Shown: positions 1-24,501 of the stretch, piece after piece | How positions within the stretch are numbered: position 1 is the stretch's first letter | Layout of the letters: every line of letters starts with the position of its first letter | Source: Thraustochytrium sp. TN22 | Taxonomy: Eukaryota > Sar > Bigyra > Thraustochytrida > Thraustochytriidae | DNA length: 24,501 bases | Direction of reading: 5' to 3' | NCBI GenBank assembly: GCA_013306675.1 | Contig: JABLUY010000375.1 | Span: 1 to 24,501, forward strand | Translations under genes and position numbers: made by a program | Notes under the pieces: model-generated | Told to the model about the DNA's origin: nothing | Databases searched by the model: none | The model's input: only the letters and a program-made list of their open reading frames with translations

Positions 1-54
<54 letters not shown>
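1..54 (+). repeat. CAG trinucleotide repeat, (CAG)17-CAA
   Basis: Seventeen pure CAG codons plus one CAA, in frame with the LRR protein, giving at least 18 Gln followed by T-P-Q-P-R before the ATG at 70. The tract touches the window edge, so its full length is unknown. Confidence 0.97.
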
Positions 55-5228: not shown

Positions 5229-5565
5229 GGCCGCCGCCGCGCCGCGCTGCGCCGCAGCCACGAGCTCCAGCCCGCCCGCGAGGGCCGACGCGCGGCGCCG
5301 CAGCGGCGAGCCGCGAGCGGCGAGGAGCGAGCGGCGGGCGGGCGGCCGCGCGCGCCGGCCCCTGCCGCCGCCGCCGCCGCCGGGTTGCGGTTCTGGCGGC
5401 GGCGGGCGCGCTTGGACACGCGTGCCAAGGTTTGCCGTGACCCTTTTGACGTCATGGGGCAACTTTGGTATCGCGGTGGTTAGGTCGGTCGTTGGAGGAC
5501 ACGAAGCAAAGCAAAGCAAATCAACGCAGGCAGAGCGGCAACGCGCGCGCGGAGGCCGCGAGAGC
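5229..5565. promoter_or_regulatory. Divergent promoter region between QTGAL-like and PHAX-like genes
   Basis: A 337-bp gap between two start codons facing away from each other. The half nearest QTGAL is extremely GC-rich; the half nearest the PHAX gene (about 5430-5530) is more balanced and carries TGACGTCA and AAGCAAAGCAAAGC. Its placement makes a shared bidirectional promoter likely; no TATA box is evident. Confidence 0.5.
5447..5454. promoter_or_regulatory. CRE-like palindrome TGACGTCA
   Basis: Perfect 8-bp consensus site of CREB/ATF-type bZIP factors, 119 bp upstream of the PHAX-domain ATG and 219 bp from the QTGAL ATG. The match is seen directly; use as a binding site is inference from position. 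Confidence 0.4.
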
Positions 5566-6057
5566 ATGGCGAGCGACGACGAGGCCGCGCTCGAGTCGGA
5601 GCTGGCGCGGCTCGAGGCGCAGCTGGCCGACCTGGAGCGCCGCGAGGGCGGGGGCCGCGCCCGGGACCCGGACGAGGACGAGGAGGACGAGGTGGACGAG
5701 GACGACGTGGCGCCTCGGCGAAGGAGGCGCGAGGAGGACAAGGAGGAGGGGAAGCGGCGCGAGGTAGAGGGCCGGCGCGAGCTGGTGCGCGAGATCTGCG
5801 CGGCGCTCAAGGAGCAGAATGAGGAGTTCGTGGCGGATATTGTAGGCGAGCTCGGCGACGCCAGGGCGAGGGAGCTGCTGCGCGAGACGGAGGAGGTCCT
5901 GGCGGGCGGAGGGCTGGCCACGGCGGACGGCCAGCGGCAGCGGAGCGCCGGCGGCTCGTTCTTTATCCTGGCGCGCTCGCGCATCGGGCCGAAGCAGTTC
6001 GCGCGCATGCGGACGCTCGACAGCAGGCGGCGCAAGGCGCGTCGCCAGCGTCGCTGA
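5566..6057 (+). CDS. Small PHAX RNA-binding-domain protein
   Basis: A 163-aa protein from the ATG at 5566 (MASDDEAALESE). Residues 1-30 form a short acidic/Leu coiled-coil-like helix, 30-65 are charged (Asp/Glu run, then an Arg/Lys cluster), and about 66-150 match the PHAX RNA-binding domain: a V-x-x-LG helix (ADIVGELG), LLRETEEV, GG, then a Gly-Gly-x-FF core (SAGGSFFILARS) and an IGPKQF helix equivalent to ISEEQI of human PHAX. The C-terminus is Arg/Lys-rich. Known role: PHAX binds capped snRNA and links it to the cap-binding complex and CRM1 for nuclear export, and helps snoRNA transport. This protein is much shorter than metazoan PHAX (about 390 aa); I see no obvious nuclear export signal. 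The frame is open further upstream but without sensible sequence. Confidence 0.75.
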   Translation: MASDDEAALESELARLEAQLADLERREGGGRARDPDEDEEDEVDEDDVAPRRRRREEDKEEGKRREVEGRRELVREICAALKEQNEEFVADIVGELGDARARELLRETEEVLAGGGLATADGQRQRSAGGSFFILARSRIGPKQFARMRTLDSRRRKARRQRR

Positions 6058-6161
6058 CTCGGACCGAGTGAGTCGTTGGACCGCAATGAAAAGCACAGCA
6101 CAGGGTTAATTTTTTGTAAGAATAAGAGAGCCATGGAAGCGAGCTGTCGCCTCTCATGTGG

Positions 6162-9100
6162 TCAGGCAAACGAGGTCACGAAGGAGTCGCCAGCGGGCAT
6201 GCCATCCTCCGTGAGCGTTTCGGCGGCATCGCCGGGACAGTGGCGCAGATTGAGCCAGACCAGCTTGCTGGCGTAGGTGGAGTCCGAGCCGATGCGGTCG
6301 AGGTCGAGGTCGACGTCAAGGTCCTCGGCGACGTTGGGCATGCGCATGACCTCGGTGGCCGGAATGGGGTCGGTGCGCCAGGCGTCCGAGTAGAGCAGGT
6401 CCAAGTAGGCGCGCGGGAGATGCGGGCAGCGCACCTTTTCGTTGCCGTAGAGGCCGGTGGCGCAGGGCCGCGTGGGGAGCACCCAGTCGAGCGGCACGGG
6501 CTTGCCCTTGGGGCCGACGACGCAGCGGCGCGAGCTGCGCGAGGTGAGGCGCGGCACGATGCGCAGCTTGGCGGAGGACGGCTCGTTCATGTTGACGACC
6601 TCGTAGAAGGACACGTGGTACTTGCTGGAGATCTTGGAGATGGACTTGCACGTGTAGCGCGAGGTCCGGGACGACAAGGAGGACGAGGACGAAGCAGAGG
6701 ACGAGGAAGACGAGGCCGGGTCGGCGTCGGTGTCCTCGTCCGAAGGCAGGTCCTCGATGACCTCGGCCGCCGCGGCGGCCGCCGCGCTGGCAGCGGCCGT
6801 GCCGTTGGCGCCCGCGGCGAGCGCCGCGGCCTCGGCGGCCGCAGCGGCGCCGGCGGCCGAGGTGGTCTTCTTCTTGCGCGAAGAGGCGCTGCGCGCGTAG
6901 CAGCCGCGGATGAGGTAGGGACGGTAGAAGAAGCCCTTGTTGAACTTGTCGAGGATGGTCTTGACGGAGCGCGCGCTCTTGTGGACCATGCTGACGGTGC
7001 CGGAGGTCTGCCATGGCGCCATGACGCCGTCGAGGCGCTCGACGGCGAGCGCGAAGCCCTCGTCGACCCACCAGTCGTTGAAGGAGACCGCGACGAAGTG
7101 CGTGGTGATGGCGCGCATCATCTTGAGCAGCTCGTCGTGGTCGTCGCAGCAGCGCGAGCTCTTGTAGGCGGTGGAGGCCGTGAGGAAGGTGGGCTGCACG
7201 CCAAAGGCCGGCGCGAGGTCTGAGACGTCCTGGCACTCGAGGCTGCGCGGGCACTCGAAGCGGTTGGAGCGCTGCACGGAGGCGTTGATGGCCACGGGCA
7301 GCGGGTCGCGCGGCACCGGGACGAGGCCGTCCTCGTAGCGCGGGAAGATGTCGTGCAGCTCCTGCGAGGCGCGCTTGAGGTTGACGACGCGGTCGCAGTA
7401 GCGGCCCGTGGTCTTGGAGGAGCGCCACTCGCAGGCGAGCTGCGACTCGCACTTGAGCTTGGAGCGCAGCAGCGAGCAGCGCGTGCCGAGCTCCTCCGGG
7501 TTGTCCAGGTAGTAGCGGTCCACGCAGTACTTACCCTTGGACAGCGTCTTGGCAGGCCAGATGCAGTGCCTCATGGCGTCGCACGTGGACCGCACCTTGG
7601 TGGAGGAGCACGGCAGGAACTCGACCTCGGTGTGGCACGTCTTGTCCTTCCAGTAGCAGTGGTCATTGGCCTCGCAGTAGTCCTGACCCGTGAAGAGGCT
7701 GCACTTTTTCAGCGTGTGCGTAACGTTGCCGATGCGCACGCGCGTGACGCTGGCCGGCAGGGCCTCGCCATCGGCGAGGTCGTCCTCGCTCATGAAGAGG
7801 TTGGCGCTGTTGGCGGCGGCCTCGCGGTCGCGCATCTCCACGCAGTAGCGGCCCTTGGTGCGCTTGGTGGAGGACCAGCGGCAGTTGGGGATCTTGCCGC
7901 AGGTGGACTTGACCTTGGTCATGTTGCACGTCATGGCCCAGGGCTCCGTGCGGCACGCGCGGCTGTCCGTGTTCCAGTAGCAGCGGTCCACGGCCTCGCA
8001 CGAGGGCTGGGCCGCCAGCTTGTAGCAGGCCACGTTATTGCTGTTGTTGTCGCTGGCGCCGGCCGCGTCGGTGCCCTCGAGGGCGATCGAGATCTCCTCG
8101 AGCGCCTCGGACACCTCCTCCTCCTCCTCGGCCTGCAGGTTCTCCACGCAGTACCGGCCCTTGGTCTTGGATCGCGACGCCCATGTGCACTTGCTCAGCT
8201 TGGCGCAGGTCGTCTTGACCTTGGTCATGGAGCACTCCATGGCCCACAGCTCGGTGCGGCAGCTCCGCGTGTCCGTGCCCCAGTAGCAGTGCGGGATCTC
8301 TCCGCACCGCGTCTTGGACGTGACGTCCTTGCACCGGATGTCCTGCGGGGTCAGCTGCGAGAGGTCCACGCTCAGGGGCGGCAGCGGGGCGGCCTGCGCG
8401 GCCAATGCGGCCTGCGCGGCGCCGACCGCCTCGGCGGCCGTCTGCTCGTCCGCCTCGTCCGCCTCGGCCTCGGTTTGCGCGCCGGCGTCCACGTCGGCGT
8501 CCGCGATCTCCTCAGCGTCCAGGGCGTCCAGGTCCAGCGTGAACCCGGACCACGCCTCGCCGCTTTGGTTGATTGCCGCCTCTGCCTCGGCCTCGTCGTC
8601 CGAGCGCATGCGCGCGGTCTCCTCGTCCTGCTCCTCGTCCGCCTCGCCCGGCTCTCCCTCGAGCGCGTCCTCGTCTTCCTCGTCCTCGTCGCGCGCCTGG
8701 CCGGCGTCGCCACCTTCTGACGCGTCCTCCTCCTCCTCCTGCTCCTCCTCCTCCGCGGCCAAGCGCTCCTCCTCCTCGCTCAGCACGGCGCGGTCCGCGT
8801 CCTCGTCATCGTCGCTCGCGTCCAGCACGAGCTCGATCTCCACGTTGTCATACGCGTCGCTGCGCTCCTGCGCCACGGCCCTGGCGTCCTGCTCCGCGAG
8901 GGCGCCCTTGCGCGGGGCCCCGCCCGCCGCCGCCGCCGCCCGGCCTTGCTCCTTGCCCACGCCCTCGGCCGCGACGGCCACGTACAGGTACCGCACAGGG
9001 GACATGCTCTCCTCGGCGTCTTCCTGCCGCGCCGCGTACATGTTCGACAGCATGCTGGAGAGCATCACGTGATAGCCCACGGCCACCAGCAGCAGCGCGC

Positions 9101-9194
9101 CGCCCAGCATGAGCCGCGCCGACAGCGACCCGCGCCAGCTCGGCCCGCCGCTCAGAGCGCCGCCGCGCGGGCTGCGCGCCTTGGGGCCCAGCAT
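6162..9194 (-). CDS. Type II membrane protein: acidic stem, seven four-Cys modules, divergent LicD/fukutin-like domain
   Basis: 1010 aa from the ATG at 9194. A basic N-tail precedes one membrane anchor (about 28-50, LMLGGALLLVAVGYHVML), as in Golgi type II enzymes. Residues about 100-285 are a Glu/Asp/Ala-rich stem. Residues 288-600 hold seven copies of a C-x8-C-x5-C-x-W-x(4-10)-C module (starts 288, 321, 390, 423, 498, 529, 573). After about 690 the sequence resembles the LicD/fukutin nucleotidyltransferase family: WWVDEGFALAVERLDGVMAPW (708-728) aligns with the W-L-x-G-G-T-L-L-G-x-x-R and I-P-W motifs, and YLDLLYSDAW (about 920-930) with the usual YL-x3-YG-x-W end. The acidic DxDxD after PW is replaced by QTSGTVS, so catalysis is doubtful. 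A Ser/Ala-rich insert interrupts the domain (about 770-850). Family role (phosphocholine or ribitol-phosphate transfer to glycans) is only a hint here. Upstream in-frame codons to 9545 are GC-rich and lack a better start. Confidence 0.7.
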   Translation of the reverse strand: MLGPKARSPRGGALSGGPSWRGSLSARLMLGGALLLVAVGYHVMLSSMLSNMYAARQEDAEESMSPVRYLYVAVAAEGVGKEQGRAAAAAGGAPRKGALAEQDARAVAQERSDAYDNVEIELVLDASDDDEDADRAVLSEEEERLAAEEEEQEEEEDASEGGDAGQARDEDEEDEDALEGEPGEADEEQDEETARMRSDDEAEAEAAINQSGEAWSGFTLDLDALDAEEIADADVDAGAQTEAEADEADEQTAAEAVGAAQAALAAQAAPLPPLSVDLSQLTPQDIRCKDVTSKTRCGEIPHCYWGTDTRSCRTELWAMECSMTKVKTTCAKLSKCTWASRSKTKGRYCVENLQAEEEEEVSEALEEISIALEGTDAAGASDNNSNNVACYKLAAQPSCEAVDRCYWNTDSRACRTEPWAMTCNMTKVKSTCGKIPNCRWSSTKRTKGRYCVEMRDREAAANSANLFMSEDDLADGEALPASVTRVRIGNVTHTLKKCSLFTGQDYCEANDHCYWKDKTCHTEVEFLPCSSTKVRSTCDAMRHCIWPAKTLSKGKYCVDRYYLDNPEELGTRCSLLRSKLKCESQLACEWRSSKTTGRYCDRVVNLKRASQELHDIFPRYEDGLVPVPRDPLPVAINASVQRSNRFECPRSLECQDVSDLAPAFGVQPTFLTASTAYKSSRCCDDHDELLKMMRAITTHFVAVSFNDWWVDEGFALAVERLDGVMAPWQTSGTVSMVHKSARSVKTILDKFNKGFFYRPYLIRGCYARSASSRKKKTTSAAGAAAAAEAAALAAGANGTAAASAAAAAAAEVIEDLPSDEDTDADPASSSSSSASSSSSLSSRTSRYTCKSISKISSKYHVSFYEVVNMNEPSSAKLRIVPRLTSRSSRRCVVGPKGKPVPLDWVLPTRPCATGLYGNEKVRCPHLPRAYLDLLYSDAWRTDPIPATEVMRMPNVAEDLDVDLDLDRIGSDSTYASKLVWLNLRHCPGDAAETLTEDGMPAGDSFVTSFA
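7395..8333 (-). repeat. Seven tandem C-x8-C-x5-C-x-W-x(n)-C protein modules
   Basis: Codons 288-600 of the type II membrane protein. Modules alternate between an A type (for example CKDVTSKTRCGEIPHCYW, closing Cys five to seven residues later) and a B type (for example CSMTKVKTTCAKLSKCTW, closing with K-G-[RK]-Y-C). There are three A-B pairs and a final A-like module. Spacing between the first three Cys and the Trp is identical in all seven. Confidence 0.85.
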
Positions 9195-9774
9195 CGCGCC
9201 CGGCCCGCCCCTCGCCGCGCCTCCCCGCGCCGCGCCGCGCCGCGCGGCCGGAGTCTCGAGCGGGTTTGAGAAAGATGTGGAAGAGATGGATGGATGGAGA
9301 TGGACGCTCGAGCCGATGCCGCCCGGGACCAGCCGCCGCCGCGCCGCCGCAGCGGCAGCGCGCCGCGCCGCGCCCGCCGGGCCACGGGGAGGGCCGCCGC
9401 CGCCGCGCGACCCGGCGCCGCCGCCGCCGCGCGCGCGCGCGCCGCTCCGGAGCGCGAGCGTAGTTGCGGACTTGCGCGCTCGCAGGCGGGCGCATGGGAT
9501 GCCGCGCCGGCGCCGCCCCGCGCGCCGCGTCCCGCACTGCCGCACGCCCTAATTCCCCTTCCCCCCGCACCGGACCCGGGTGCCCGGTCCTCGCGCCCGC
9601 CCTCGCGGCCGCCGCCCGCGCCGCCCGGCCGCCGCGGCCGCCGCGGGCCGCGCCGCCGGCGGCGCGCGCCGCGCGCGGCGCGGCGCGCCGCCGCCGCGCG
9701 CCCCGCGCGCGCCCCGCCGCGCCGCAGCGCGCCCGCGCCCGAGGAGCGGGGAGCGACACGCCCGCGCGGTCCCC

Positions 9775-12741: not shown

Positions 12742-13304
12742 GCTTTACTCGCCACCCCATGTCTCGTGCAAGCGCCTTTTGCTCGGGCGCATCTCGTGCA
12801 CGCGCGACAAAGCCACCCTGCTTCTTCGTAAACACTGGAAACCCATACGTACATGAGATGAGACCTTGTGCGTTGGCGCGGACGCGCCAGACAGAGCAGA
12901 GCAGAGCAGAGCCTCCATGGCCTCGCAACCGAAAAGCGACCTGGCCCCTTGAAGATGATGAGAGACGACTTCGGCACTGGATGGGCAGCGCCAGTGATGT
13001 GATGACAGCGCACGGTTGAGGTCGTCGACCGCGACGACATCATGGGCTCCCTGATGAGAGTCCCTCCCTCTCCCTCCCTCCGGCACGCGCCGCGCTGTCT
13101 GTCACGCGGGCTCGCTCCGGCGCAGCGTCCAGACTCCATTCGCTCGCGCGCGGGCGGCGGCAGGTGTGCGTGACCTGCCGCCGCGCCCGGCAGCGCCGCC
13201 GCGCCGCGCTCGCGCCGCGCCCACCGACGCCGACGCCGCCTCGCTCGCCCGAGGCCGAGGTCGAGGTCGCCGGCGCCGGCGGCGTCAACGTCCGCCTGCT
13301 CGCC
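12742..13304. other. Intergenic region between PSMA3 and O-fucosyltransferase-like gene
   Basis: 563 bp with no supported gene. It holds the PSMA3 3' end, an AGAGC(AGAGC)n short run near 12890-12910, and a CCCTCCCTCT pyrimidine tract at about 13061-13080 that probably belongs to the downstream promoter. An in-frame upstream ATG at 13164 is discussed with the next gene. Confidence 0.55.
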
Positions 13305-14990
13305 ATGTTCCGCCGCAAGACCGGGTCCACGCCGCGCGCGAGCGCAGACCGCAGCGCAGCGTTCGCCGGCGCGGGCCTGGCGCCCGCCCGCGCGCCGGCG
13401 TCGCTCGCCGCGGGGGCGGCCAAAGTCGCGGCGCTGCTGGCCGTGGCGCTGCTGCTCGCGCTGTACGTGAGCAGGGCGACGCAGCTCGTGCTCGAGAAGG
13501 ACCTCGACGACGCAGACACGGTGGCGCGGCGCGATCTGGAGCTCGCGCGCCGCCATGCGATCGACGTCGACGCACGCCTCGGCGCGGCGGGACACGCGCG
13601 CGCGAACGCGGACGTCTCGCACGCAGCCCAGGTCGTCGCGGACGCGCTCGCCGCCGCCGAGGCCATGCAGAATGGGCAGCAAACGCCGCAGCAGGACGCC
13701 TATCACACGGCAGAGGAGAGCGGCGGCAGCGATAGTAGTAGCGACGGCGTGCAGACGAGCGCAATCCAGCACATCGAGGACGAGGACGAGGACGGCGCCG
13801 CCGTGGAGGATGGCGATGCGGAGGGCGTGGACGAGGAGGGCGAGGACGGGGAGGCTGACGAGCCCGAGACCGCTGGCACGCCGGCCGGCAGCCTGGCGGA
13901 GGTAGCCCGCGCCGCAGGCATCGACTGGGGCGGCACCCTGCACACGGACATGGAGGCGTGGCGGCGCGTGCCGGATCGCTTTCGGCTGCGCGAGGAGGAG
14001 CGGGGGCGCTTTTTCCTGTACCAGCCGTCAGGCGGCTGGGGCAATCAGCGGCTCGTGCTGCGATGGGCCATCATCGCGGCCAACGCCATGAACCGCACGC
14101 TCGTGCTGCCGCCGGTCGCGCCGCACGCCAATTTCTACGCGGGCTTCAACCGCTTCAACCGGTCCGAGATACTGCACATGGGCCAAGTACTCGACCTTGA
14201 CCTGCTTGCCACGCGCGTCCACGCCGGCATTCGCGTGCACGAGGGCGACATGACCTCGTACGCGACCGGCATTCTGCGCAGCCAAGACCGGGTGTGGCGC
14301 GTCTACGAGAAGCCCCCCGCCATCTCCTTTTACCAAGAAAAGTCCATCTTTCAGCGCTGGAGCCGCGAGCCCGCCGACGTGGTGTTTTGGCACAAGACAT
14401 CCATGTGGAAGTGCTGCGCCACCAACGACGCGGCCTACTACGCCTTCATCCAGTACGGCATGGAATTTTCCAGGACGCTCAAGGCCGTGGCGCTGCACGC
14501 CGCCGCCACCGAGATGCCGCGTGGCTACAACGCCATCCACTTCCGCCGCGGCGACAGTCAAATCATGGAGCGCCGCTCCATCGCCAAGTATGTCAAGTAC
14601 CACCGTGCCAAGATCCGCCCCATGGACCGCTCGCTGCCGCTCTACGTGGCGACGGACGAGCGCGACCAGTCCATCTTCAAGCCGTTCGTGACCGCGAACA
14701 GCTTTTCCTCGCTCGTCTTCGCCAGTGATTTGAGCCGCGAGGTGCTTGACCCCTTCTTCGCGGCCGTCCCGCCGGCCATGCACGGCGACGTGTACGGTTT
14801 CCTGGACCAGATCGTCTGCGTCTACGCGGATCGCTGGGCCGGGTCGGCGCTTTCCACCTTCTCGTACGTGATTTCAGCAATGCGCAACAAGCGCCTGCGC
14901 AACGGCAAGTACTTTAGCAAGCTACGCTTTAGAAGCGGCGGCGAGGCCAGTTTTTTGCCACGCGATCCTGTTCGCGATTTCTCCAAGTAA
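13305..14990 (+). CDS. Type II membrane O-fucosyltransferase-like protein (GT-B fold)
   Basis: 561 aa from the ATG at 13305. One membrane anchor (about 42-57, VAALLAVALLLALYV) follows a short basic tail, then an acidic low-complexity stem to about 220. The catalytic region starts with FFLYQPSGGWGNQR (GGWGNQ at 243-248) and AMNRTLVLPP, as in GDP-fucose protein O-fucosyltransferases, where the GNQ loop and NRTL..PP follow the first strand. HFRRGD (412-417) corresponds to the conserved H-x-R-x-G-D nucleotide-binding motif, YVATDERD to the next strand, and YADRWAGSALSTFSYVISAMR to the C-terminal sugar-nucleotide region. Substrate and exact sugar cannot be told from sequence; a Golgi or ER lumenal site is expected. 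An ATG at 13164 in frame would add 47 Arg/Pro-rich residues before the anchor; I prefer 13305. It converges on the first TIR-like gene. Confidence 0.75.
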   Translation: MFRRKTGSTPRASADRSAAFAGAGLAPARAPASLAAGAAKVAALLAVALLLALYVSRATQLVLEKDLDDADTVARRDLELARRHAIDVDARLGAAGHARANADVSHAAQVVADALAAAEAMQNGQQTPQQDAYHTAEESGGSDSSSDGVQTSAIQHIEDEDEDGAAVEDGDAEGVDEEGEDGEADEPETAGTPAGSLAEVARAAGIDWGGTLHTDMEAWRRVPDRFRLREEERGRFFLYQPSGGWGNQRLVLRWAIIAANAMNRTLVLPPVAPHANFYAGFNRFNRSEILHMGQVLDLDLLATRVHAGIRVHEGDMTSYATGILRSQDRVWRVYEKPPAISFYQEKSIFQRWSREPADVVFWHKTSMWKCCATNDAAYYAFIQYGMEFSRTLKAVALHAAATEMPRGYNAIHFRRGDSQIMERRSIAKYVKYHRAKIRPMDRSLPLYVATDERDQSIFKPFVTANSFSSLVFASDLSREVLDPFFAAVPPAMHGDVYGFLDQIVCVYADRWAGSALSTFSYVISAMRNKRLRNGKYFSKLRFRSGGEASFLPRDPVRDFSK

Positions 14991-15233: not shown

Positions 15234-18200
15234 TCACTCGCTCAGCTGCTGCTCCTGTGTCCAGGTCTTGGGCGGCTCAAGGCGGTGGCCGGCGACGTGG
15301 CGACGCAGGTCCGCCTCGTGCGCGATGGACTTGGCCATGTACTCGGGCAGCGCCGCGGCACGAACCTCCTCGCCCTTGGCTGTGCGCGCCGACAGAAGGA
15401 TTAGCGGTCGCGTCCACGAGCAGCCTTCCTCACATAGCATCTGTTGGTGCTCGGCGAGGTCCTTCACATCGGGGTCAGCGGCAAGGTCCTCGGAAATGAC
15501 CCAGAACGCAAAAGGCAGCGCCGAGAGGGCAGCCTGCACCTGCGCCGGCTCATGTACAACGTGTACGAGGTCCTGGTACGGCTCGACCGAACTGTCGTCC
15601 GTGGCGGCAATCATGTCGGCGAGGATGTCGCCCCGGAGGCGATCCGCGCGCGCCGGGTCCGTGTCGAGGATGAGAACGCGCCGGAGGCGGCGCATGATGA
15701 GGAAGCGAAAGTCCTCCAGCTGGTTGCGCAGGACCCTGTGCGCCACGCGCGCCTCGGCGTGCCGCGGCAAGAGGCTGCGCACGGTGGGCTCTGCCGTGCG
15801 CAGCAAGAAGAGGCGCTCCTCGCGCAGCAGGCGGATGCCGCGCCCCGGGCTGCTCGCGATGAGTCCCGCGTAGCACTGGTCGATGCGGTCCAGGTTGGTC
15901 AGCACGCGGTCCAGCGGGCAGAAGCCTTCCATGGCGGCCTCGGACTGGCGCTTAAAGGAGCTGCGGAGCACCGTGAGCGCCGCGCCGTAGTCGCCGCGCC
16001 ACAGCAGGCTGAGGCCCTGGCACATTTCCGTCATGGCCGGGCGCGGCGTGTCGTAGCCGGCCCAGCGCAGGCGCAGGTTGTACGCTTTGACGAAGCAAGC
16101 GTTAACCTCGTTCGCATCGCCATTTTCGAGGTCGAGAAGCTTGGCCCAGTGCACGTAGGCTGAGGCGAGCGAGTCGGGCTGCGGGTCAAGCTGCTCCTGC
16201 GCGCGGATCGAAGCCTGGAGCGCTGGCTTGATGAGCGCCAGATCCGCGTCCATGTCGCGAGACAGCTTGACGCGCCGCGTCTGCGTGTGATGCTGGTTCA
16301 GCAGGATACGCGCCAGCGTGTACTGCGCCGTGTAGAGGTCGCGAGCCTTGGTGGCTTCCAGGTACACGATCGACTCCTGCAGGCAATCCACGGCCTCGTC
16401 GACCAGGTCATCCTCCCAGGTGTCGCCCAGCATGCGGCCCTTCTTGCAGAGCAGGCTGCCCAGCACGGCCTCGAACTGCTCGCGCTCTGGGGACCCGAGC
16501 GGTTTCGCATTCCAGGCGGCGCGCACGTCGTCAAGCACGCTGTCGACAAAGTCGACGCCCTCAAGGTGCGCGCCTTGGATCGTAAAGGCCGCGGCGAGCT
16601 CGTTGTGCACGACGGCGAGGTTCAGGAGGCCGACGTGGCCCTTGATGAGGCCCACGAAGCGCGCCGGGTCGCATCCGGTCTCGTGGCGCTCGATGTTGTC
16701 GCACACGCGCTCCATGATGAGACCCAGCACAGCCTGGCGCACCTCCGTGTCGGCGCGCTCGCGGCGGTTGTGGCGGTCGAAGAAGCGGTCGTGCATGAGC
16801 TTGTCCTCTGGCTTGGCCGCGCGACTCGTCGCGTACGTGGCCTTCTCGAAGATGTACTCGAGGCGCCGCATCGTGGCCTTCAACTCCCGCTCGCTCATGG
16901 GCTCGCGGGACTGCCGGTTGCCCAGGCAGCTCGCACTAAAGTGGTCCAGCTCCTCGTACTCTCGCTTCGGCAGCGCCAGCGCCAGGGGCCGCCGATTCTC
17001 CAGCGCGAGCAGAATCTCGAACCAGCACCAGCTGCGGCCCAGCACCATGGGCGACTCGACGGGCGCGCCCGGCTCAGCCGACTCGTCCTCGGTCGCCGGG
17101 GCGGCCGCCGACTCGTCCGCGGCTCGCCACGTGTCCAGCACCACGAGCACGCCGTCGCGCATGGCCTTGATCTTGCCGTCCAGGTCCAGCTGCAGTTTCT
17201 GGGAGTCCTCCGGGCTCGACTCGTCCGCCGAGGCCGCCCTCGCCGGCTGCGGCAACGCGAAGGCGTCGATCCAGAGATAGGTCGTCTCGGCCGCCACGCG
17301 ATTGCGCGCGGCCCAGGCGCCTAGGGCGTCTGCGAAAGTGGCAAAGCCCACCTTCCAGGCGTGGACCACGTAGCGTGTGGCATCCGCGAACCACTGCTCC
17401 GGCCGCGTGCGAATGCCAGCCTTCTCCGCAAGCGCGCACAGCTCCTCGCGCAGGTCGGCGCCCTCCTCGGACATGAGCAGCTCGACGAGGCTCGGGAAGC
17501 GGCCCACGGCGGTCTGGGCCACCTCCGCCAAGTAGCGGACGGACGGCAGCTCCGGCGCCGACGCCACGCCCTGCACCACATCATACGCCGTCAGCCGATC
17601 GTACATGTCCGCCGGCGCGTGCGCCGCCACGTAGAGCGCGAAGATGCGCACGAAGTCCACGGACACGCCGCGCGTGGGCTCCAGCGCCACCAGCGAGGCG
17701 GCGGCTGGCGCATCGGCGCCCTCATTTCCACCGCCCACAAGGGCCTTGACGCCGCGCTGCCACATGGTGGCGAAAAAGCTGCTCAGCGCGTTGCTGCTCC
17801 CCGCCGGCGACGGCTTGGCTTCGGTGCGCGCAACAGCGTTGCTGCTTGACGACGAGCTCGAAGCTGGGCTGGAAGGCTTCATGCGCCGCTTCGGCCCCTT
17901 GGCCCGCAGGCAGCCGCCGGTCGTCAGGAAAAGGAGCCACTCGCGCGACGCCGCGCTCTCCTTGTCCTCGGACGATATGCTCGCCAAGAAGAGCAGGCCG
18001 GCGCACCACTTGATGAAGCCGTCCGTCACCCTCTCTTGCCAGGGTCCCGCGGGAGCGGCCGAGGAGGCATTCGAAGAGGCGCCAGTCGCACCAGTGGCAC
18101 CGGTGGCACCCGCGCTGGCCCGGACGCTCTGCTGGACGAGGCTGTCGAAGTCGCCGCCGGCATTCTCCAAGATCTCGCCGAGTGCCGTCGGCTCGTCGCA

Positions 18201-19211
18201 CAGGACTGCAGCAAGCTTGCCGGCCGTAGACGACTTGTTGTTCTCGCAGAACACGTGCAGAGCCACCGCGCGCAGGGCGAAGGACCCGAGTTGCCGCTGA
18301 TCCAAGCGCGACGCTGCGTTCGCGGCCCTGTTGTCCAGGATGCGCTGCAGCATGCGGTCCAGAAGCTTGCGCGAACCGTTGTAGACCCACAACTGGTTCG
18401 GGCGCTGCGGCCGTAGGTTTCTCTCGAAGAGGCCGCCGGCCGATACCCAGGCCTTGGCCGTCGCGAGCGCCTCCTCAAGGTCGCTCTCTGCGAGCAGCCA
18501 CAGCATGCCGAGCTCCGCCACGACCCGAGCCCGCCACTCGCCTGTCCTGTCCGTGGTGCCCGGGTCCGAGCGCACCTCGAAGCGCCGCTGCGGATGCTGC
18601 AGTGGCTCGATGCTCACGCCCTGCGCCAGGTCTTGCAGGGGCTGCGTAAGCGCAGTCCGCAGGCGCCCGCAGGCGCTCAGATCTTTGGCATCCTTCTTGT
18701 AGCCAAAGATGAGCCAGACCATGAGCCTGGCCACCCACTCCACGTCGCTCAACTCGAAATCAACAGGACTCGCGCCCTCCACCGTCGCCTTGATCTGCTT
18801 CATCACCTGCGCAAGCGCTGTGTCAAACACGAGCCTGGACGCCGTCCTCTCCGGCGAACCCTGCCCGAGCTGAAAGTTCTCATCCACGTGCATGATCTCC
18901 TTGCACAGCGTCTCATACTCCAGCACCACCTCAAAGTCCTCCAGCCGCCGCGCGTAGTCCACCTGTCCCATGCCCTGCACCGTGCTATTGACGCGGTCCG
19001 TGAAGCTCGGTGCCAGTCCGGCCGCCTGCCCGGCGCCCTGCTGCTGCTGCTGCTGCTGCTGCGTCACCAGCGGCGCCGGCGCCGGCGGCGGGCCGTCGGG
19101 CGCGCGGGGCGCGCCGTCCTCCCTCCGCGGCACGCCGTCCTCCCCGCGCGCCACCTGCACGAAGCCGCCGTCGCTCTCGCCGTCGTTGCTCTCCGCGCCG
19201 TCGGCCATCAT
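15234..19211 (-). CDS. TIR-like/TPR-like/receiver-like multidomain protein, paralogue A
   Basis: 1325 aa, start at 19211 (MMADGAES). Order: disordered N-tail with (Gln)8 at codons 19038-19061; a helical N-domain (about 80-400) containing KLLDRML and FIKWCAGLLFL; a linker rich in Ser/Ala; a TIR-like domain (about 560-760) with HAW (617-619), LWIDAFALPQ (W647, D649), GVLVVLDTW and SWCWFE (E732); a long helical TPR-like part (about 800-1160); and a C-domain from RRVLILDTD (D1183, D1185) through PLILLSA and EYMAKS to RHVAGHRLEPP-x2-W. The middle matches the SHSW/WLD/WCxxE pattern of TIR-like proteins in protists and algae. The C-domain follows the strand order of response-regulator receivers, but Ser replaces the phospho-Asp. 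No membrane segment is seen, so it is probably cytosolic. It has a tandem paralogue upstream on the same strand. Function is inference: signalling or defence. Confidence 0.82.
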   Translation of the reverse strand: MMADGAESNDGESDGGFVQVARGEDGVPRREDGAPRAPDGPPPAPAPLVTQQQQQQQQGAGQAAGLAPSFTDRVNSTVQGMGQVDYARRLEDFEVVLEYETLCKEIMHVDENFQLGQGSPERTASRLVFDTALAQVMKQIKATVEGASPVDFELSDVEWVARLMVWLIFGYKKDAKDLSACGRLRTALTQPLQDLAQGVSIEPLQHPQRRFEVRSDPGTTDRTGEWRARVVAELGMLWLLAESDLEEALATAKAWVSAGGLFERNLRPQRPNQLWVYNGSRKLLDRMLQRILDNRAANAASRLDQRQLGSFALRAVALHVFCENNKSSTAGKLAAVLCDEPTALGEILENAGGDFDSLVQQSVRASAGATGATGATGASSNASSAAPAGPWQERVTDGFIKWCAGLLFLASISSEDKESAASREWLLFLTTGGCLRAKGPKRRMKPSSPASSSSSSSNAVARTEAKPSPAGSSNALSSFFATMWQRGVKALVGGGNEGADAPAAASLVALEPTRGVSVDFVRIFALYVAAHAPADMYDRLTAYDVVQGVASAPELPSVRYLAEVAQTAVGRFPSLVELLMSEEGADLREELCALAEKAGIRTRPEQWFADATRYVVHAWKVGFATFADALGAWAARNRVAAETTYLWIDAFALPQPARAASADESSPEDSQKLQLDLDGKIKAMRDGVLVVLDTWRAADESAAAPATEDESAEPGAPVESPMVLGRSWCWFEILLALENRRPLALALPKREYEELDHFSASCLGNRQSREPMSERELKATMRRLEYIFEKATYATSRAAKPEDKLMHDRFFDRHNRRERADTEVRQAVLGLIMERVCDNIERHETGCDPARFVGLIKGHVGLLNLAVVHNELAAAFTIQGAHLEGVDFVDSVLDDVRAAWNAKPLGSPEREQFEAVLGSLLCKKGRMLGDTWEDDLVDEAVDCLQESIVYLEATKARDLYTAQYTLARILLNQHHTQTRRVKLSRDMDADLALIKPALQASIRAQEQLDPQPDSLASAYVHWAKLLDLENGDANEVNACFVKAYNLRLRWAGYDTPRPAMTEMCQGLSLLWRGDYGAALTVLRSSFKRQSEAAMEGFCPLDRVLTNLDRIDQCYAGLIASSPGRGIRLLREERLFLLRTAEPTVRSLLPRHAEARVAHRVLRNQLEDFRFLIMRRLRRVLILDTDPARADRLRGDILADMIAATDDSSVEPYQDLVHVVHEPAQVQAALSALPFAFWVISEDLAADPDVKDLAEHQQMLCEEGCSWTRPLILLSARTAKGEEVRAAALPEYMAKSIAHEADLRRHVAGHRLEPPKTWTQEQQLSE
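19038..19061 (-). repeat. CAG repeat, eight copies
   Basis: Eight CTG triplets on the plus strand, read as Gln8 near the N-terminus of paralogue A. Paralogue B has a Gln/His tract in the corresponding position. Confidence 0.92.
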
Positions 19212-19685
19212 CCTCCTGCTCCTCGCGCCGCGCCTCGGGCTCGGCCGCGCCGCGCGGGGGTGGAGGCGAGCCTGGCGAGGGGCGCGGGCGGCCGTCGCGT
19301 TCGGGGTCTGCCGCCGCGCCGCGCCGCGCCCGCGCCGCGCCGCCTCGCGCCGCGCCGCGCGTCTGACCAGACTCGGCGCGCGCGGTCCCGGAAACCGGTA
19401 CCCGGCGGGAGCGCGGCGGGAGCGCCGTCTCGCGCCGAGCCCAGGCGCGCCGAGCCGAACCGAAGGCGCGGGGCGCGAGCGAGCGAGCGAGTGCGGCGAG
19501 CAAGCGCGGCCGGCCGCCAGCCAGCCGGCCGGCCGGCCGGCCCGCCGCTGGCCTGGCCTGGCCCGATCGAGGCGGCGCGGGCCCGAGGCGGCGGCGGCCA
19601 GAGCGGCGCTTTACTCGAGTCTGATTGGACGCGAGAAGTGTGGGGAGGGGACAAGGTTTCGGAATGCGCGCTCTCGCGTGCCGCG

Positions 19686-19720
19686 CGTGGCGTGGCGTGG
19701 CGTGGCGTGGCGTGGCGTGG
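19686..19720. repeat. CGTGG pentanucleotide microsatellite, seven copies
   Basis: Seven perfect CGTGG units, followed by one CGTAG and a GCTA-rich stretch with several GCTAGC palindromes (19727-19757). Confidence 0.95.
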
Positions 19721-19760
19721 CGTAGCGCTAGCTAGTCTACGAGCTAGCTAGCTGGCTAGA

Positions 19761-19902
19761 GCGAGCTTCACGAGCTCGTGGCTCGAGCTGGCCACGGCCT
19801 CCAAGCCGATGAGCCTGGCTACTCTCTACTGGCTGGAGTCTGCGAGCGAGCTTCACGAGCTCGTAGCTCGAGCTCGCCAAGGCTTCCAAGCCGATGGGCC
19901 TG
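19761..19902. repeat. Direct repeat, two 57-bp copies 85 bp apart
   Basis: Copies at 19761-19817 and 19846-19902 both begin GCGAGCTTCACGAGCTCGT and end in CCAAGCCGATGxGCCTG, differing at only a few bases. Each contains the self-complementary segments GAGCTC and CTCGAG. Confidence 0.9.
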
Positions 19903-20174
19903 GGCTGCCTGGCCCTGGTTACCGAAGCCAGACTCGGATGGAGTGGGAAGAAAGGGCGAGCCCGGAGGCGGCCCGAGTCTGCACGGATCGCGGTGCCGAT
20001 GGCGAGCGACGGGGCGTGCTCGAGCAGGGAGGCACGACGAGTCTGCAAGGATTACGGTGGTGGACGCCTGGCCGGAGAGAGGCGCGAGTACGAGTCTGCT
20101 GGGATTGCACGATGTGCCGTGTGACACGTGGCTAGGCCCTGGACCACCCTACCACCCCCTGCACTGCCCTGCAG

Positions 20175-20209
20175 CCAGATTTTGCGCAGGAGTGTGCTGG
20201 CAAATCTGG
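20175..20209. repeat. Inverted repeat (hairpin), 10-bp stem
   Basis: CCAGATTTTGC (20175-20185) pairs with GCAAATCTGG (20200-20209), with one bulged T and a loop of about 14 nt. It sits in the spacer between the paralogues. Role unknown. Confidence 0.6.
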
Positions 20210-20458
20210 GTGGTACCCGGGGTAGGCAGACTTGGACGACGTGGGTGAGCCGGGCCAGGGACGTGTCTTGGCGCTCCTGTACAGCGCAAGACTTCAAGTC
20301 TTCGTTGATTCTTGGCCGCGATGAGCTCTCCCGCCCTCCTCCGAGCCTCTTGCGCGTGCTTTTTATTTTCGAAGACTCAGGCTGGATCTCATCTGACTCA
20401 TCTGGATTTAGGATTAGTTAGTTTGGCAGTGATGCTGGTCGAAGAGCACGGCTCAGTC

Positions 20459-23400
20459 CTACTCAGCGAAGCGATGCACGTTGGTCCAGCGCTCGGGCGG
20501 CTCCAGGCGGTGCCGCGCGACGTGCCGGTACAGGTCTTGCGGCGCGAGCCGCGGCAGCTGTGCATGGAAGTCGTCCTCAGGCTGTTCGGCGGGGTACTGC
20601 TTGTCGTCGTCGTCGCCAGGACGGCGCTTTCCGTCGCCCTCGCGCAAAAAGACGGGGTGCGTATAGGCCTTGCCGGCGGCGGAGAGGTCGCGCTGCTCGC
20701 TGAGGAAGTGCTGCACGCGCTTGTCCAAGGCGAGCGACTCAGACACCACGCAGAAAGCAAAGGTGCGGGACTTCAGGGCGTCTTGGAGCTGGGCAGCGTC
20801 GTGCACGGCGTGGACGAGGTCCTGAAGCGCCTTGTCTCCGTCGCAGACGCACCTGGACTTGATGTCGGCCAAAAGGGCGTCACGGAGCTCCCCAGCGCGT
20901 TGCTGGTCAACGTCGAGGATGAGGACGCGGCGGAGGCGACGCATGAGCGTGAAAGTGAAATCGTTGAGCTGGCGCTCGACAACCTTGGCGCTCTGCTCTT
21001 CGATGAGCTTGCGCAGCCTGGGCTCCGCTTTGGTCTGCAAGAAGGTTCGCTCCTCGCGCAGCAACAGCGTTGCGCTCGCCGGGTTGGCCGCAATGAGCCC
21101 GGCGTAGCACTGGTCGATGCGGTCCACGTTGGTGAAGACACGGTCCAGCGGGCAGTAGCCGCGCTCGCAGGCGTCCGCCTGGCGTCCGAAGGCGCCGTGC
21201 AGCTCCTTGAGCGCCGGGCCGAACTTGCGCCGAATCAGCAGGCTGAGGCCGAGGCACATCTCCGACATGACGGACCGCGGCGCGTCGTAGCCGGAGAGGC
21301 CCAGGCGCAGGTTGAACGCCTTGTCGAAGCACGCGTGGACCTCGCTCAGGTCGCCGCCCCTTAGGTCCAGAAGCTTCGCCCAGAACACGTAGGCCGACGC
21401 GAGCGAGTCGGGCTGCGGGTTGAGCTGCTCCTGCGCGCGGATGGATGCCTTAAGCGCCGGCTCGGCGACGGCCAAGTCCGCGGCGAGGTCGCGCTTCGAC
21501 TTGGGATTGCGGCCCGTGGTGTGGTGCTCGGTCAGGAGCACCCGCGCCAGCGTGTACTGCGCGACGTGAAGGTCCGGGTCGGCGGCTGACTCCAGATGCT
21601 CGATGGCCTCTTGCAGGCAGGCCACAGCGTCGCCAACGCGCGACCCGTCCCAGGTGTCGCACAGCAGGCGGCCCTTTCTGCACAGCAAGCGGCCCAGGAC
21701 GGCCACGAACTTGGAGCGGAGCCAGCCCTGAAGCCGAATCGCGTCCAGCTCGGCGCGCACCGCGCTTATCGCACTGTCGACAAACTTGAGGCCCTCTAAA
21801 TGCCGGCCCTGGACCGTGTATGCGATCGCTAGCTCGTCCTGAACGAGCGCCAGGTTGAGCAGGCCGACGCGGTCGCGGATGAAGTTCACGAAGCCCGCAG
21901 GCTCGCAAATCACCTTGTGGGCCTTGATTTGGCCGTGCACGCGCTGTAAAATGAGGCCCAAGACGGCCTGGCGCACCTCCGTATCGACACGCTCGCTACG
22001 GTTGTAGCGCCCGAAGAAGCGATCGTGCATGGCCTTGTCCGCGGGCTTCTTCGCCTGGCTGGACCCGTAGGTGGCCTGCTTCAGCATTGACTCGAGCCAA
22101 ACCTTGGTGGCCTCGTTCGCCTCCTCGTCGACAGGCTCGTCCGATGGCACCCCGAGGCAGATGTTGCTGAATCGGTCCAGCGCGTCGTAGCGGTTCTTGG
22201 ACAGCGCCAGGGCCAGCGTCTTGCGCTCCTCAAGCGCGATCATGATCTCGAACCAGCACCAGCTCCGGCTCAAGAGCGTGTGCCGCTCGCCCACGCCGCT
22301 GCCCTCGGCCTCCGTCTGCTCCGGATCCGGACTTTGGACGGCCCACGAGTCCAGCAGCACGAGCACGCCGTCGCGCACATTGCTGATCAAGCTGGGCAGG
22401 TCCTGCTGGAGCTTCCGTTCCGACACAGGGTCGGAGGCATCCTTGCCGCTCGTGTTCTGGGGCGTCGAGAAGAAATCGATCCACAGGTAGGTCGTCGCGG
22501 CGCTCTCGCGGTTCTGCGCCGCCCAAGCGGCCACGGAGTCCTCGAAGAGATCCGCATTCATCTCCCAAGCGTGCACCACATATCGCGTGGCCTTGCCGAA
22601 CCACGTGCCCGGGTCCGTGCGAATGCCGTCCTTGGCGGCCAGGTCGCAGAGTTCCAGCTCCAGGGCCTTGCCGGCGTCGGACTTGAGCAGCTCGATCAGG
22701 CTGGGCAGGTCCCCGCCGAAGGCGTCCTTGGCCTCGTCGACGAGCGAAGAGATGGACCTGAATGACCCGCGCTCCTCCGAACCCCACACCAGGTCGTAGG
22801 CCGTCCGCGTCGGCGAGCTCTCGGGATCCGCGTGTCTTGCCGCGTACAGCCCGAAGATCCTCACAAACTCCACCGAAACGCCCAGCGTGTGTGGGCCCTC
22901 CACCTCCACGCGCTTTTCGGCCCTGGCCTCGTCCTGGACCCAGGCCTTGAACTGGCCGAACAGCGCCAACACGCCCAGATGCGCAGACCGCATCCAGCGC
23001 CAAGCGGCGCCCAGCCCGCCTTGCAGGCCCTCTACGATGGCTGGCCAAAGCCCGTGTTGCCTCGGCCTTTTCGCAGGAGTGTTGTTGCCATCCTTCGACT
23101 CCGAGAGGCCTCCAGAGCCCGGAGCCGGTTGAGGGCTAGCTTGCGGCTGTGAGAGCTCCTCGAGGCGCCTCAAGAGGTCGCTCGAGCTTTGGCGCACCAT
23201 GATGAGATCGGCAGCCGCGGGCCCAGGGTCCACGCCGAGGAACCCAAGGAAGAGGACCCCGGCGCACCACTTGATAAAGTTGTCGCGCAACTGGTATACC
23301 TTGGCCGCATAATCTCCTGCACCAGTGTCTTCATCGTACGAGACAAGCTCGTGAACGACGGGGCCCAGGACGGAGAGCTTCTCCACCGGGTCACAGAAGA

Positions 23401-24501
23401 CGTATATGGCTTGTCCTTGCATCGCACCGAGAAGCTCTCGGCCATCGAGGTCCGCCGCCACGCGAGGCTCGTAGGTCTTCTGGAAGATCATGTCCAGCAG
23501 CTTCCTGACGCCTCCGCCGATGCGTTCATCCTTGCTACGCGAGAACTGCCTGAAGCAGGGAATGCCACCGAGCCCCACCAGGCGGTTCGCTTCTTCCAGT
23601 GCCTCTTGCACGTCGCCTTGGGCCTGCCTGCAAAGTTCTCCCAGGCGCACCACCACCTCAACCCGCCACCGAATGCGGAGCCAGCTGATCTGTGCTTCAG
23701 GGTATCTCTGCAGGTCGCGCGCCTGAGGCGCCTGGCCCGAGAGGGCGTGCGACAGCATTGCATAAACCGCGCCTGCATTCTGCTCGTCGTCAGCGATGAT
23801 CGCGCCAGACCAGACGCCGACCTGTCCGGTCGTGAAAGCGCGCTCAATGAGGTCGCGGGCGCTCACGTCCGTGCCCTTGGTGAACTTGAGCACGGTGGCA
23901 GCCACCGCTTGGGCCACAGAGCTGAAAGAGGCCGTGTCAATGGGCGCGCCGACGCCACCGCTCTTGATCGTCCTGAGGACTTCGCTGAAGAGCACCCCCA
24001 GAACGCCTTTCGCTGCCGTGTTCGAGCTGCTCGGACCCTTGCATGACTGGGAATTGTCAACCTCGCAGATACTGTTTGCAATGTGCGCGAACAATTGGTT
24101 GTTGGCCCCCAAGAGTCCTTGGAACCGGTCTCTGTAGACGAACGCAGTTGCAATACCACCCGGCGCCAGACGATAATGCTGGTTGACCCTGTTCTGCACG
24201 GCCTCCTCGTGGGCTGTAGCTCTTACAGAGAACAGCTGAAGCGGGCTCACTTCTGCTGGGTGCATGGTGCCACCCTCCTGGGCCTCGCGGAGAAGAAGTG
24301 GAGCTGGGTTCGCAGCGCCTTGCTGGATCGCCGCTGCAGCACCATCCGTCTGGTTCGCAGTGAGAACGTCTTCAAAGAGGTTCAGCTGCTGCTGCTCCTG
24401 CTCCAGGTGCTGTTGCTGGTGCTGCTGGTGCTGGTGCTGCGGGTGCTGCTGGTGCTGGTGCTGGTGCTGGTGCTGCTGGTGCTGCTGGTGCTGCTGGTGC
24501 T
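20459..24501 (-). CDS. TIR-like/TPR-like/receiver-like multidomain protein, paralogue B (5' partial)
   Basis: The first internal ATG (24265) would give 1268 aa, but the frame stays open for at least 78 more codons to the window edge, through a linker and a Gln/His repeat, so the true start is probably outside. Numbered from 24265: helical N-domain (about 20-345) with KLLDMIF and FIKWCAGVLFL; Ser/Pro/Gln linker; TIR-like domain (about 500-700) with HAW (565-567), LWIDFF (W595, D597), GVLVLLDSW and SWCWFE (E673); TPR-like helices (about 740-1090); C-domain from RRVLILDVD (D1118) to RHVARHRLEPP-x2-W. It matches paralogue A along its length, most strongly in the TIR-like part and the TPR-like part. 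In the C-domain both the phospho-Asp position (Ser) and the later Lys are lost. No membrane segment. The role is unknown; the paralogue pair suggests family expansion by tandem duplication. Confidence 0.82.
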   Translation of the reverse strand, partial: HQQHQQHQQHQHQHQHQQHPQHQHQQHQQQHLEQEQQQLNLFEDVLTANQTDGAAAAIQQGAANPAPLLLREAQEGGTMHPAEVSPLQLFSVRATAHEEAVQNRVNQHYRLAPGGIATAFVYRDRFQGLLGANNQLFAHIANSICEVDNSQSCKGPSSSNTAAKGVLGVLFSEVLRTIKSGGVGAPIDTASFSSVAQAVAATVLKFTKGTDVSARDLIERAFTTGQVGVWSGAIIADDEQNAGAVYAMLSHALSGQAPQARDLQRYPEAQISWLRIRWRVEVVVRLGELCRQAQGDVQEALEEANRLVGLGGIPCFRQFSRSKDERIGGGVRKLLDMIFQKTYEPRVAADLDGRELLGAMQGQAIYVFCDPVEKLSVLGPVVHELVSYDEDTGAGDYAAKVYQLRDNFIKWCAGVLFLGFLGVDPGPAAADLIMVRQSSSDLLRRLEELSQPQASPQPAPGSGGLSESKDGNNTPAKRPRQHGLWPAIVEGLQGGLGAAWRWMRSAHLGVLALFGQFKAWVQDEARAEKRVEVEGPHTLGVSVEFVRIFGLYAARHADPESSPTRTAYDLVWGSEERGSFRSISSLVDEAKDAFGGDLPSLIELLKSDAGKALELELCDLAAKDGIRTDPGTWFGKATRYVVHAWEMNADLFEDSVAAWAAQNRESAATTYLWIDFFSTPQNTSGKDASDPVSERKLQQDLPSLISNVRDGVLVLLDSWAVQSPDPEQTEAEGSGVGERHTLLSRSWCWFEIMIALEERKTLALALSKNRYDALDRFSNICLGVPSDEPVDEEANEATKVWLESMLKQATYGSSQAKKPADKAMHDRFFGRYNRSERVDTEVRQAVLGLILQRVHGQIKAHKVICEPAGFVNFIRDRVGLLNLALVQDELAIAYTVQGRHLEGLKFVDSAISAVRAELDAIRLQGWLRSKFVAVLGRLLCRKGRLLCDTWDGSRVGDAVACLQEAIEHLESAADPDLHVAQYTLARVLLTEHHTTGRNPKSKRDLAADLAVAEPALKASIRAQEQLNPQPDSLASAYVFWAKLLDLRGGDLSEVHACFDKAFNLRLGLSGYDAPRSVMSEMCLGLSLLIRRKFGPALKELHGAFGRQADACERGYCPLDRVFTNVDRIDQCYAGLIAANPASATLLLREERTFLQTKAEPRLRKLIEEQSAKVVERQLNDFTFTLMRRLRRVLILDVDQQRAGELRDALLADIKSRCVCDGDKALQDLVHAVHDAAQLQDALKSRTFAFCVVSESLALDKRVQHFLSEQRDLSAAGKAYTHPVFLREGDGKRRPGDDDDKQYPAEQPEDDFHAQLPRLAPQDLYRHVARHRLEPPERWTNVHRFAE
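24366..24501 (-). repeat. CAG/CAC (Gln/His) low-complexity tract at the window edge
   Basis: Plus-strand CTG and GTG triplets, read on the minus strand as HQQ and HQ units followed by a Gln/Glu run. In frame with paralogue B and open to the last base. Confidence 0.92.

Follow-up and report, generated by a model that had tools for sequence, protein, structure and literature searches.

A tandem gene pair filling one end of a contig

The window analysed here, a stretch of 24,501 nucleotides from Thraustochytrium sp. TN22 that constitutes the entire contig C305 of a 37.9-Mb genome in 453 contigs, carries two large genes arranged head-to-tail on its minus strand and occupying positions 15234-24499 (Table 1). 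The first, encoding P0001 (1325 aa), is a complete open reading frame (ORF) with an ATG start and a stop, and the second, encoding P0002 (1346 aa), is open at the contig end. The contig termini consist of CAG- and GCTGGT-type repeats (1-53; 24385-24501); because the contig stops inside the GCTGGT-type repeat, the true 5' end of P0002 is not seen. An end-to-end alignment of the two proteins yielded 543 identical residues in 1286 columns (42%; 809 bits), and the GC content at third codon positions (0.88 for P0001 and 0.83 for P0002) relative to that at second positions (0.47 and 0.43, respectively) follows the pattern of coding DNA. DNA repeats common to both genes are in register, with a spacing of 5.21-5.23 kb. 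As judged by sequence comparison, P0001 and P0002 are real, related tandem genes of common descent. Between them lie two 60-base direct repeats that are 92% alike and 85 bases apart (19759-19903).

Both proteins display the same order of parts: a low-complexity start, an N-domain of ~320 residues terminating in FIKWCAG(L/V)LFL, a linker, a GVSV(D/E)F segment, a core with TIR- and HET-like motifs, TPR-like helical repeats and a conserved C-terminal domain. A previous sequence-only reading had described a head-to-tail pair with one shared architecture, including a conserved N-domain, and both of these points are borne out by the presence of the two ORFs and their alignment.

Table 1. Positions of the two genes and of their parts in the window
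Feature	Position	Strand	Basis
P0001: N-domain, linker, TIR/HET-like core, TPR-like repeats, conserved C-terminal domain	15234..19211	-	ORF, alignment, GC content at third codon positions
P0001 N-domain, ~residues 86-412, ending FIKWCAGLLFL, possibly ARM-like	17976..18956	-	profile comparison and alignment
P0001 linker with a basic cluster (GPKRRMK), a stretch rich in Ser and a short hydrophobic/aromatic segment	17688..17975	-	by eye
P0001 TIR/HET-like core, ~residues 605-760: YVVHAW ... YLWIDAF ... RSWCWFE	16932..17399	-	motif set and profile comparison
P0001 WCWFE motif at residues 728-732, where TIRs have their catalytic glutamate	17016..17030	-	alignment
P0001 TPR-like (kinesin-light-chain-like) helical repeats, ~residues 841-1165	15717..16691	-	profile search
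P0001 conserved C-terminal domain, ~residues 1166-1325, MRRLRRVLILDTD..., earlier read as 'receiver-like'	15237..15716	-	alignment, profile tests
P0002: tandem paralogue of P0001, 1346 aa, 5' end lost at contig end	20459..24499	-	ORF, alignment, contig-end repeats
P0002 N-domain, ~residues 100-421, ending FIKWCAGVLFL	23237..24202	-	profile comparison and alignment
P0002 linker with a basic cluster (AKRPRQ) ahead of a hydrophobic/aromatic segment	22883..23236	-	by eye
P0002 TIR/HET-like core, ~residues 631-785	22145..22609	-	motif set and profile comparison
P0002 WCWFE motif, residues 747-751	22247..22261	-	alignment
P0002 TPR-like helical repeats, ~residues 860-1177	20969..21922	-	profile search
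P0002 conserved C-terminal domain, ~residues 1178-1346	20462..20968	-	alignment, profile tests

The core and its relatives in the genome

The cores of the window proteins are marked by three blocks, YVVHAW (residue 614 in P0001), YLWID(A/F)F and RSWCWFE (residue 728 in P0001). Searches of Pfam, NCBIfam and PDB profiles with P0001 and P0002 returned no significant TIR match, and the affiliation of the core was approached through a chain of relatives. A profile of four cores (those of P0001, P0002 and two paralogues described below, together the TIR-bearing members of one subfamily) was compared by hhalign with a profile of 13 cores from ordinary TIR/HET-like-TPR proteins of the same genome, giving a probability of 99.06 (E 1.6e-18, 159 columns); the alignment pairs the HAW/QAR, WxDxF and RxWCxxE blocks of the two sets. 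This comparison demonstrates common descent of the subfamily core and the large ordinary TIR-like-TPR family; through that homology the TIR-like domain proposed earlier for residues 560-760 is supported, close to the core found at ~605-760 of P0001. The 13 ordinary cores in turn matched the genome's own HET domain (C110:186306-186632, L045, in what is probably a non-fungal genome), which itself scores above the Pfam cut-off at 28.5 bits, with an E-value of 3e-4 and a probability of 40, none of 100 shuffles being as good. Furthermore, a mixed 19-sequence core profile scored 33.4 against this HET domain, the best of 200 shuffles reaching 21.7.

The sole TIR structure recovered in the PDB search with core profiles was the bacterial PdTIR of Paracoccus (3h16), at weak E-values of 0.51 and 1.1; in this weak alignment, which covers profile positions 40-89, the betaA-alphaA-betaB elements are in register (FISHAW:fvsqAr and VWYDDFS:vWlDiFc). 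The ThsB 'TIR-like' models of PADLOC matched one of the 19 cores (E 0.015). All 24 TIR-like ORFs that were read contained the motif WCxxE, both window proteins included; a motif filter kept 21 of these, and the three set aside carry WC(I/T)WE too. The core alignment (A4) holds 19 of the 21 ORFs. L010 was excluded as a duplicate of L011, and an iterated core hidden Markov model that drifted into the TPRs was discarded in favour of this anchored ORF set. Plant TIRs carry WCxxE, as the window cores do, and its glutamate is catalytic there. According to the available text of one report (PMC9153377), a cysteine next to the catalytic glutamate is important for a second TIR activity. The accessible portion of Dyrka et al. 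2014 (PMC4986451) independently connects fungal HET with TIR, PdTIR being one of the top two HHpred matches, and notes that Stramenopiles, haptophytes and green algae have homologues of HET. We name the core TIR/HET-like because of the chain of relatives, the 3h16 register, the ThsB match and this published HET-TIR link; by that chain it is probably a TIR in the broad sense.

At least 54 further TIR/HET-like-TPR loci were counted by hand in the genome, none of them on C305, C370, C77 or C449, and the window pair therefore represents two of a large family. The count was made among 111 matches to an ordinary member, taking those that span query residue ≤289 to ≥472; as 56 of 230 candidates were scored, 54 is a lower bound. 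Six of the 54 loci contain internal stops, so that some are probably broken or intron-split, and only some of those free of internal stops were read as proteins. Rather than forming a stand-alone system, the pair belongs to a seven-member subfamily beside these further loci. Like the window proteins, the ordinary members (for example C44:249263-251665, P0003) carry a W.D.F plus R.WC.WE core followed by TPRs; they differ in that their TPRs exceed a Pfam cut-off (10 of 10 scanned), which those of the window proteins do not, and in that the searches made detected both end domains of P0001 and P0002, the N-domain and the C-terminal one, in the subfamily only. As a separate observation, C449:52664-56260 (L016:4664-8260) encodes a protein in which an N6/N4 DNA methyltransferase (PF01555, E 3.2e-18; E 4.7e-11 against the CcrM model, below that model's cut-off) is combined with a TIR/HET-like core and TPRs, a fusion that is unusual for a eukaryote; a genome search with its core and TPRs gave 38 matches.

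A seven-member subfamily and its accessory domains

Genome searches with P0001 and P0002 revealed two TIR-bearing paralogues, one on C370 (1676 aa) and one on C77 (1505 aa). The subfamily comprises seven members, four with the TIR-like core: P0001, P0002, the C370 protein and four C77 proteins, of which three lack the core. These core-less C77 ORFs (979, 1215 and 1172 aa) retain the repeats, and a 731-aa ORF on the same contig carries the N-domain ending. The C77 ORFs form a one-strand cluster at C77:70682-93892 (L011-L013, L017), made up of the TIR-bearing member, the three TIR-less ones and the N-only ORF; after it comes a large opposite-strand ORF that we take to resemble an EDR2-type START/DUF1336 protein. 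In a tree of 21 cores, P0001, P0002 and the C370 and C77 members fell on one side of a branch (support 94/95) that recurred in 95% of 200 bootstrap trees, showing by core sequence that P0001 and P0002 group with two more TIR-bearing paralogues.

Across all seven members, the TIR-less ones among them, 26 columns of the repeat region are invariant. A profile of the seven repeat regions gave 26 PDB matches at E≤10, the best 11 of which (E 0.0019-0.0074) were ten chains of kinesin light chain 1/2 and one bacterial kinesin-light-chain-like protein. The Pfam gathering score for TPRs was not reached by the window proteins (12.2 against 30.1 bits for P0002 and no match for P0001), and the best Pfam TPR match among the seven regions had an E-value of 0.0083. 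Long helical repeats of TPR type had been proposed for both proteins, and the kinesin-light-chain matches bear this out; TPR-like is a reasonable name for the repeats.

No Pfam family matched the N-domain above its cut-off. A profile of eight N-domain endings found two designed armadillo proteins in the PDB (E 5e-4 and 0.0036), further designed armadillo proteins appearing at E above 1; the match was diffuse, composed of many small stretches with no single one passing, and it disappeared in a reversed control in which seven of the eight sequences were written backwards. The underlying eight-row alignment (A12) includes two rows, the 1215- and 1172-aa C77 ORFs, for which an N-domain is not supported. 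When the C77 ORFs were tested against a profile of P0001, P0002 and the C370 member with 60 shuffles each, the N-domain was supported in three of five (1505, 979 and 731 aa; 0 of 60 shuffles as good), and unsupported in the 1215- and 1172-aa ORFs (35 and 13 of 60 shuffles as good, respectively). An armadillo (ARM)-like fold is a possible reading of this domain. By eye, the TIR-bearing paralogues on C370 and C77 show the linker pattern of Table 1 as well, and their hydrophobic stretch reaches Kyte-Doolittle values of 1.8 (C370) and 1.6 (C77); the corresponding stretch of P0001 and P0002 is not within the top four most hydrophobic stretches of those proteins, and a membrane role is therefore a guess.

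The C-terminal domain, which opens with MRRLRRVLILDxD in P0001 and P0002, is kept in all seven members, with R14, L16 and A25 as its only invariant columns. In C77 it beat all 60 shuffles in four of four ORFs, the match being strong for the ORFs of 1505 and 979 aa (probabilities 96 and 95) and weak for those of 1215 and 1172 aa (24 and 4). The sequence-only reading had called this end receiver-like: a conserved domain does exist there, and its identity as a receiver failed in every comparison made. Two-component-linked sensors, in which a phospho-receiver at the C-terminus controls the TIR-like core, would accord with the R-V-L-I-L-D-x-D opening, which resembles receiver strand 1, and with the strands and helices that alternate by eye. 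However, none of the seven domains matched a Pfam receiver at E≤10, the PDB profile search returned no receiver, and hhalign against CheY/CheB/PhoB aligned six columns with a score of 14.0, which falls among those of 100 column shuffles (95% point 15.3, maximum 26.8). Nor was an invariant aspartate, as a conserved phospho-acceptor, found at either candidate column, placed by eye in the seven members. The receiver reading was rejected at the level of sequence, its label is best dropped for now, and the two-component model built on it is highly improbable. Separately, hhalign gave no support for kinship between the TIR-like core and the C-terminal domain (score 14.4, best of 60 shuffles 20.3).

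The C77 cluster also bears on whether the subfamily is in decay, its N- and C-terminal domains and degenerate repeats being relics and the TIR-less C77 copies steps of that process. The existence of TIR-less and N-only copies is consistent with such a course, as are the undetectable N-domain and weak C-terminal domain in two of the three TIR-less ORFs. Against this stand seven long frames free of stops and the repeat columns that stay invariant in TIR-less and TIR-bearing members alike, and we regard decay as very unlikely.

Elsewhere in the window, a leucine-rich repeat protein whose poly-Q start is cut by the contig end occupies 1-2823 (+), followed by a family 2 glycosyltransferase (4098-6134, -), a long ORF without a Pfam family (6162-9545, -), in the middle of which a Cys-rich repeat unit ending KGRYCVE/KGKYCVD is seen by eye, and an O-fucosyltransferase-like protein (13164-14990, +). 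An Rfam scan at the gathering threshold and a tRNA scan of the window gave no matches. On another contig, C124:26703-41142 encodes a polyunsaturated fatty acid synthase of PfaA type in a frame of 3044 aa (2539.7 bits summed), adjoined by an opposite 2083-aa frame, an arrangement that presumably resembles thraustochytrid gene order and speaks for a thraustochytrid source; PfaA occurs in bacteria too. Against such a source, the GC content of the window is 68%, and the available text of two reports on thraustochytrid genomes gives 43-47% (PMC7073664, PMC10101102).

A candidate sensor/effector family

HET and TIR domains have been described before, as have proteins that combine either of them with TPRs. 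SARM1, with its ARM-SAM-TIR architecture, may have a parallel in the possibly ARM-like N-domain ahead of the TIR-like core of the window proteins; however, their armadillo hits are diffuse and fall on designed proteins, SAM is replaced by TPR-like repeats, the domain order differs and a C-terminal domain is added. Unlike PdTIR, plant TIRs and SARM1, the window cores match no Pfam TIR model. The fungal HET domain (PF06985) is echoed by the blocks VSH.W ... (V/L)W(I/L)D..C..Q, and is described in the available text of two papers as a TIR-related cell-death effector that is joined to TPRs in some fungal NLRs (PMC4986451, PMC9153377); in contrast to fungal NLRs, a Pfam scan of P0001 and P0002 showed neither NACHT nor NB-ARC. 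Actinobacterial TIR-TPR proteins of group 6 are likewise large and combine TIR with multiple TPRs but, as far as the accessible text goes, have an N-terminal TIR and group-specific motifs, unlike the window proteins (PMC7075850). Among the matches listed in a search of the open-access literature, no paper combined 'thraustochytrid' with 'TIR domain', and neither the architecture of the window proteins nor the end domains of the subfamily, its TIR-less cluster mates or the methyltransferase fusion were met.

The reading we favour is that P0001 and P0002 are tandem duplicates within a divergent TIR/HET-like-TPR subfamily that may serve as an intracellular sensor/effector for stress or non-self, to which we give a probability of roughly 0.4. 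Its anatomy and ancestry are those established above, and we infer each functional step. The core, with its putative TIR/HET fold, would be the output part. It would either act, by analogy, through the WCxxE glutamate on nicotinamide adenine dinucleotide (NAD) or a nucleotide akin to it, or work by forming assemblies with further cores. The N-domain and the TPR-like solenoid would sense or bind a partner and restrain the core until a signal arrives, signal or partner binding would release it, and the C-terminal domain would regulate; the whole protein would thereby resemble TIR/HET proteins elsewhere, with the core-less paralogues possibly acting as regulators or decoys.

Several observations weigh against this interpretation. 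The probabilities of the HET comparison were modest (40 for the ordinary cores and 45 for the mixed profile), and the four subfamily cores alone gave a probability of 1.1 against the HET domain, with 2 of 100 shuffles as good. At E≤10 none of the 19 cores matched a Pfam TIR family and two matched HET (15.9 and 12.1 bits), all 19 staying below the PF06985 cut-off of 22.5 bits, unlike fungal HET. Three unrelated proteins outranked 3h16 in the PDB search, and the core tree is unrooted, with long branches at C449 and L041 that leave their positions unsure. Moreover, a pattern-based scan of 84,980 prokaryote genomes produced 47 pattern matches and no confirmed relatives, and scans of viral contigs produced no relatives.

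The principal alternative holds that the proteins are adaptors or scaffolds without an immune or death role, in which TPRs of kinesin light chain or NPHP3 type bind cargo or ciliary partners and the core is a docking module without catalysis. The kinesin light chains heading the repeat search would suit this role, as would the TPR_NPHP3 matches in 8 of 10 ordinary members scanned (six over the cut-off) and the loss of activity in some TIRs, stated in the available text of PMC9153377. Conversely, the WCxxE kept in every TIR-like ORF read would be superfluous for a pure docking surface, and at least 54 loci beside the subfamily seem many for housekeeping adaptors; we consider this alternative somewhat unlikely. 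A bolder extension of the sensor/effector reading, which we hold to be distinctly unlikely, is a repertoire of over 50 TIR/HET-like-TPR recognition proteins in a protist that, among the members scanned, lacks the nucleoside-triphosphatase switch of NLRs, and of which one branch would be a SARM1-like machine of four parts: an ARM-like N-domain gating a nucleotide-cleaving core, TPR-like repeats reading the signal and a new C-terminal domain tuning the response, accompanied by clustered TIR-less partners or decoys.

The dozens of such loci in this genome would fit a recognition repertoire. The mechanism of HET killing is stated to be unknown in the available text of a further paper (PMC10890737), and the family could help to establish whether NAD is a substrate of HET-like domains. 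Across fungi, plants, animals and bacteria, HET/TIR domains drive cell death and the recognition of self and non-self, and dozens of TIR/HET-like-TPR genes in one thraustochytrid, among them a branch with end domains of its own and TIR-less partners, likewise provide a place to ask whether such protists possess innate recognition.

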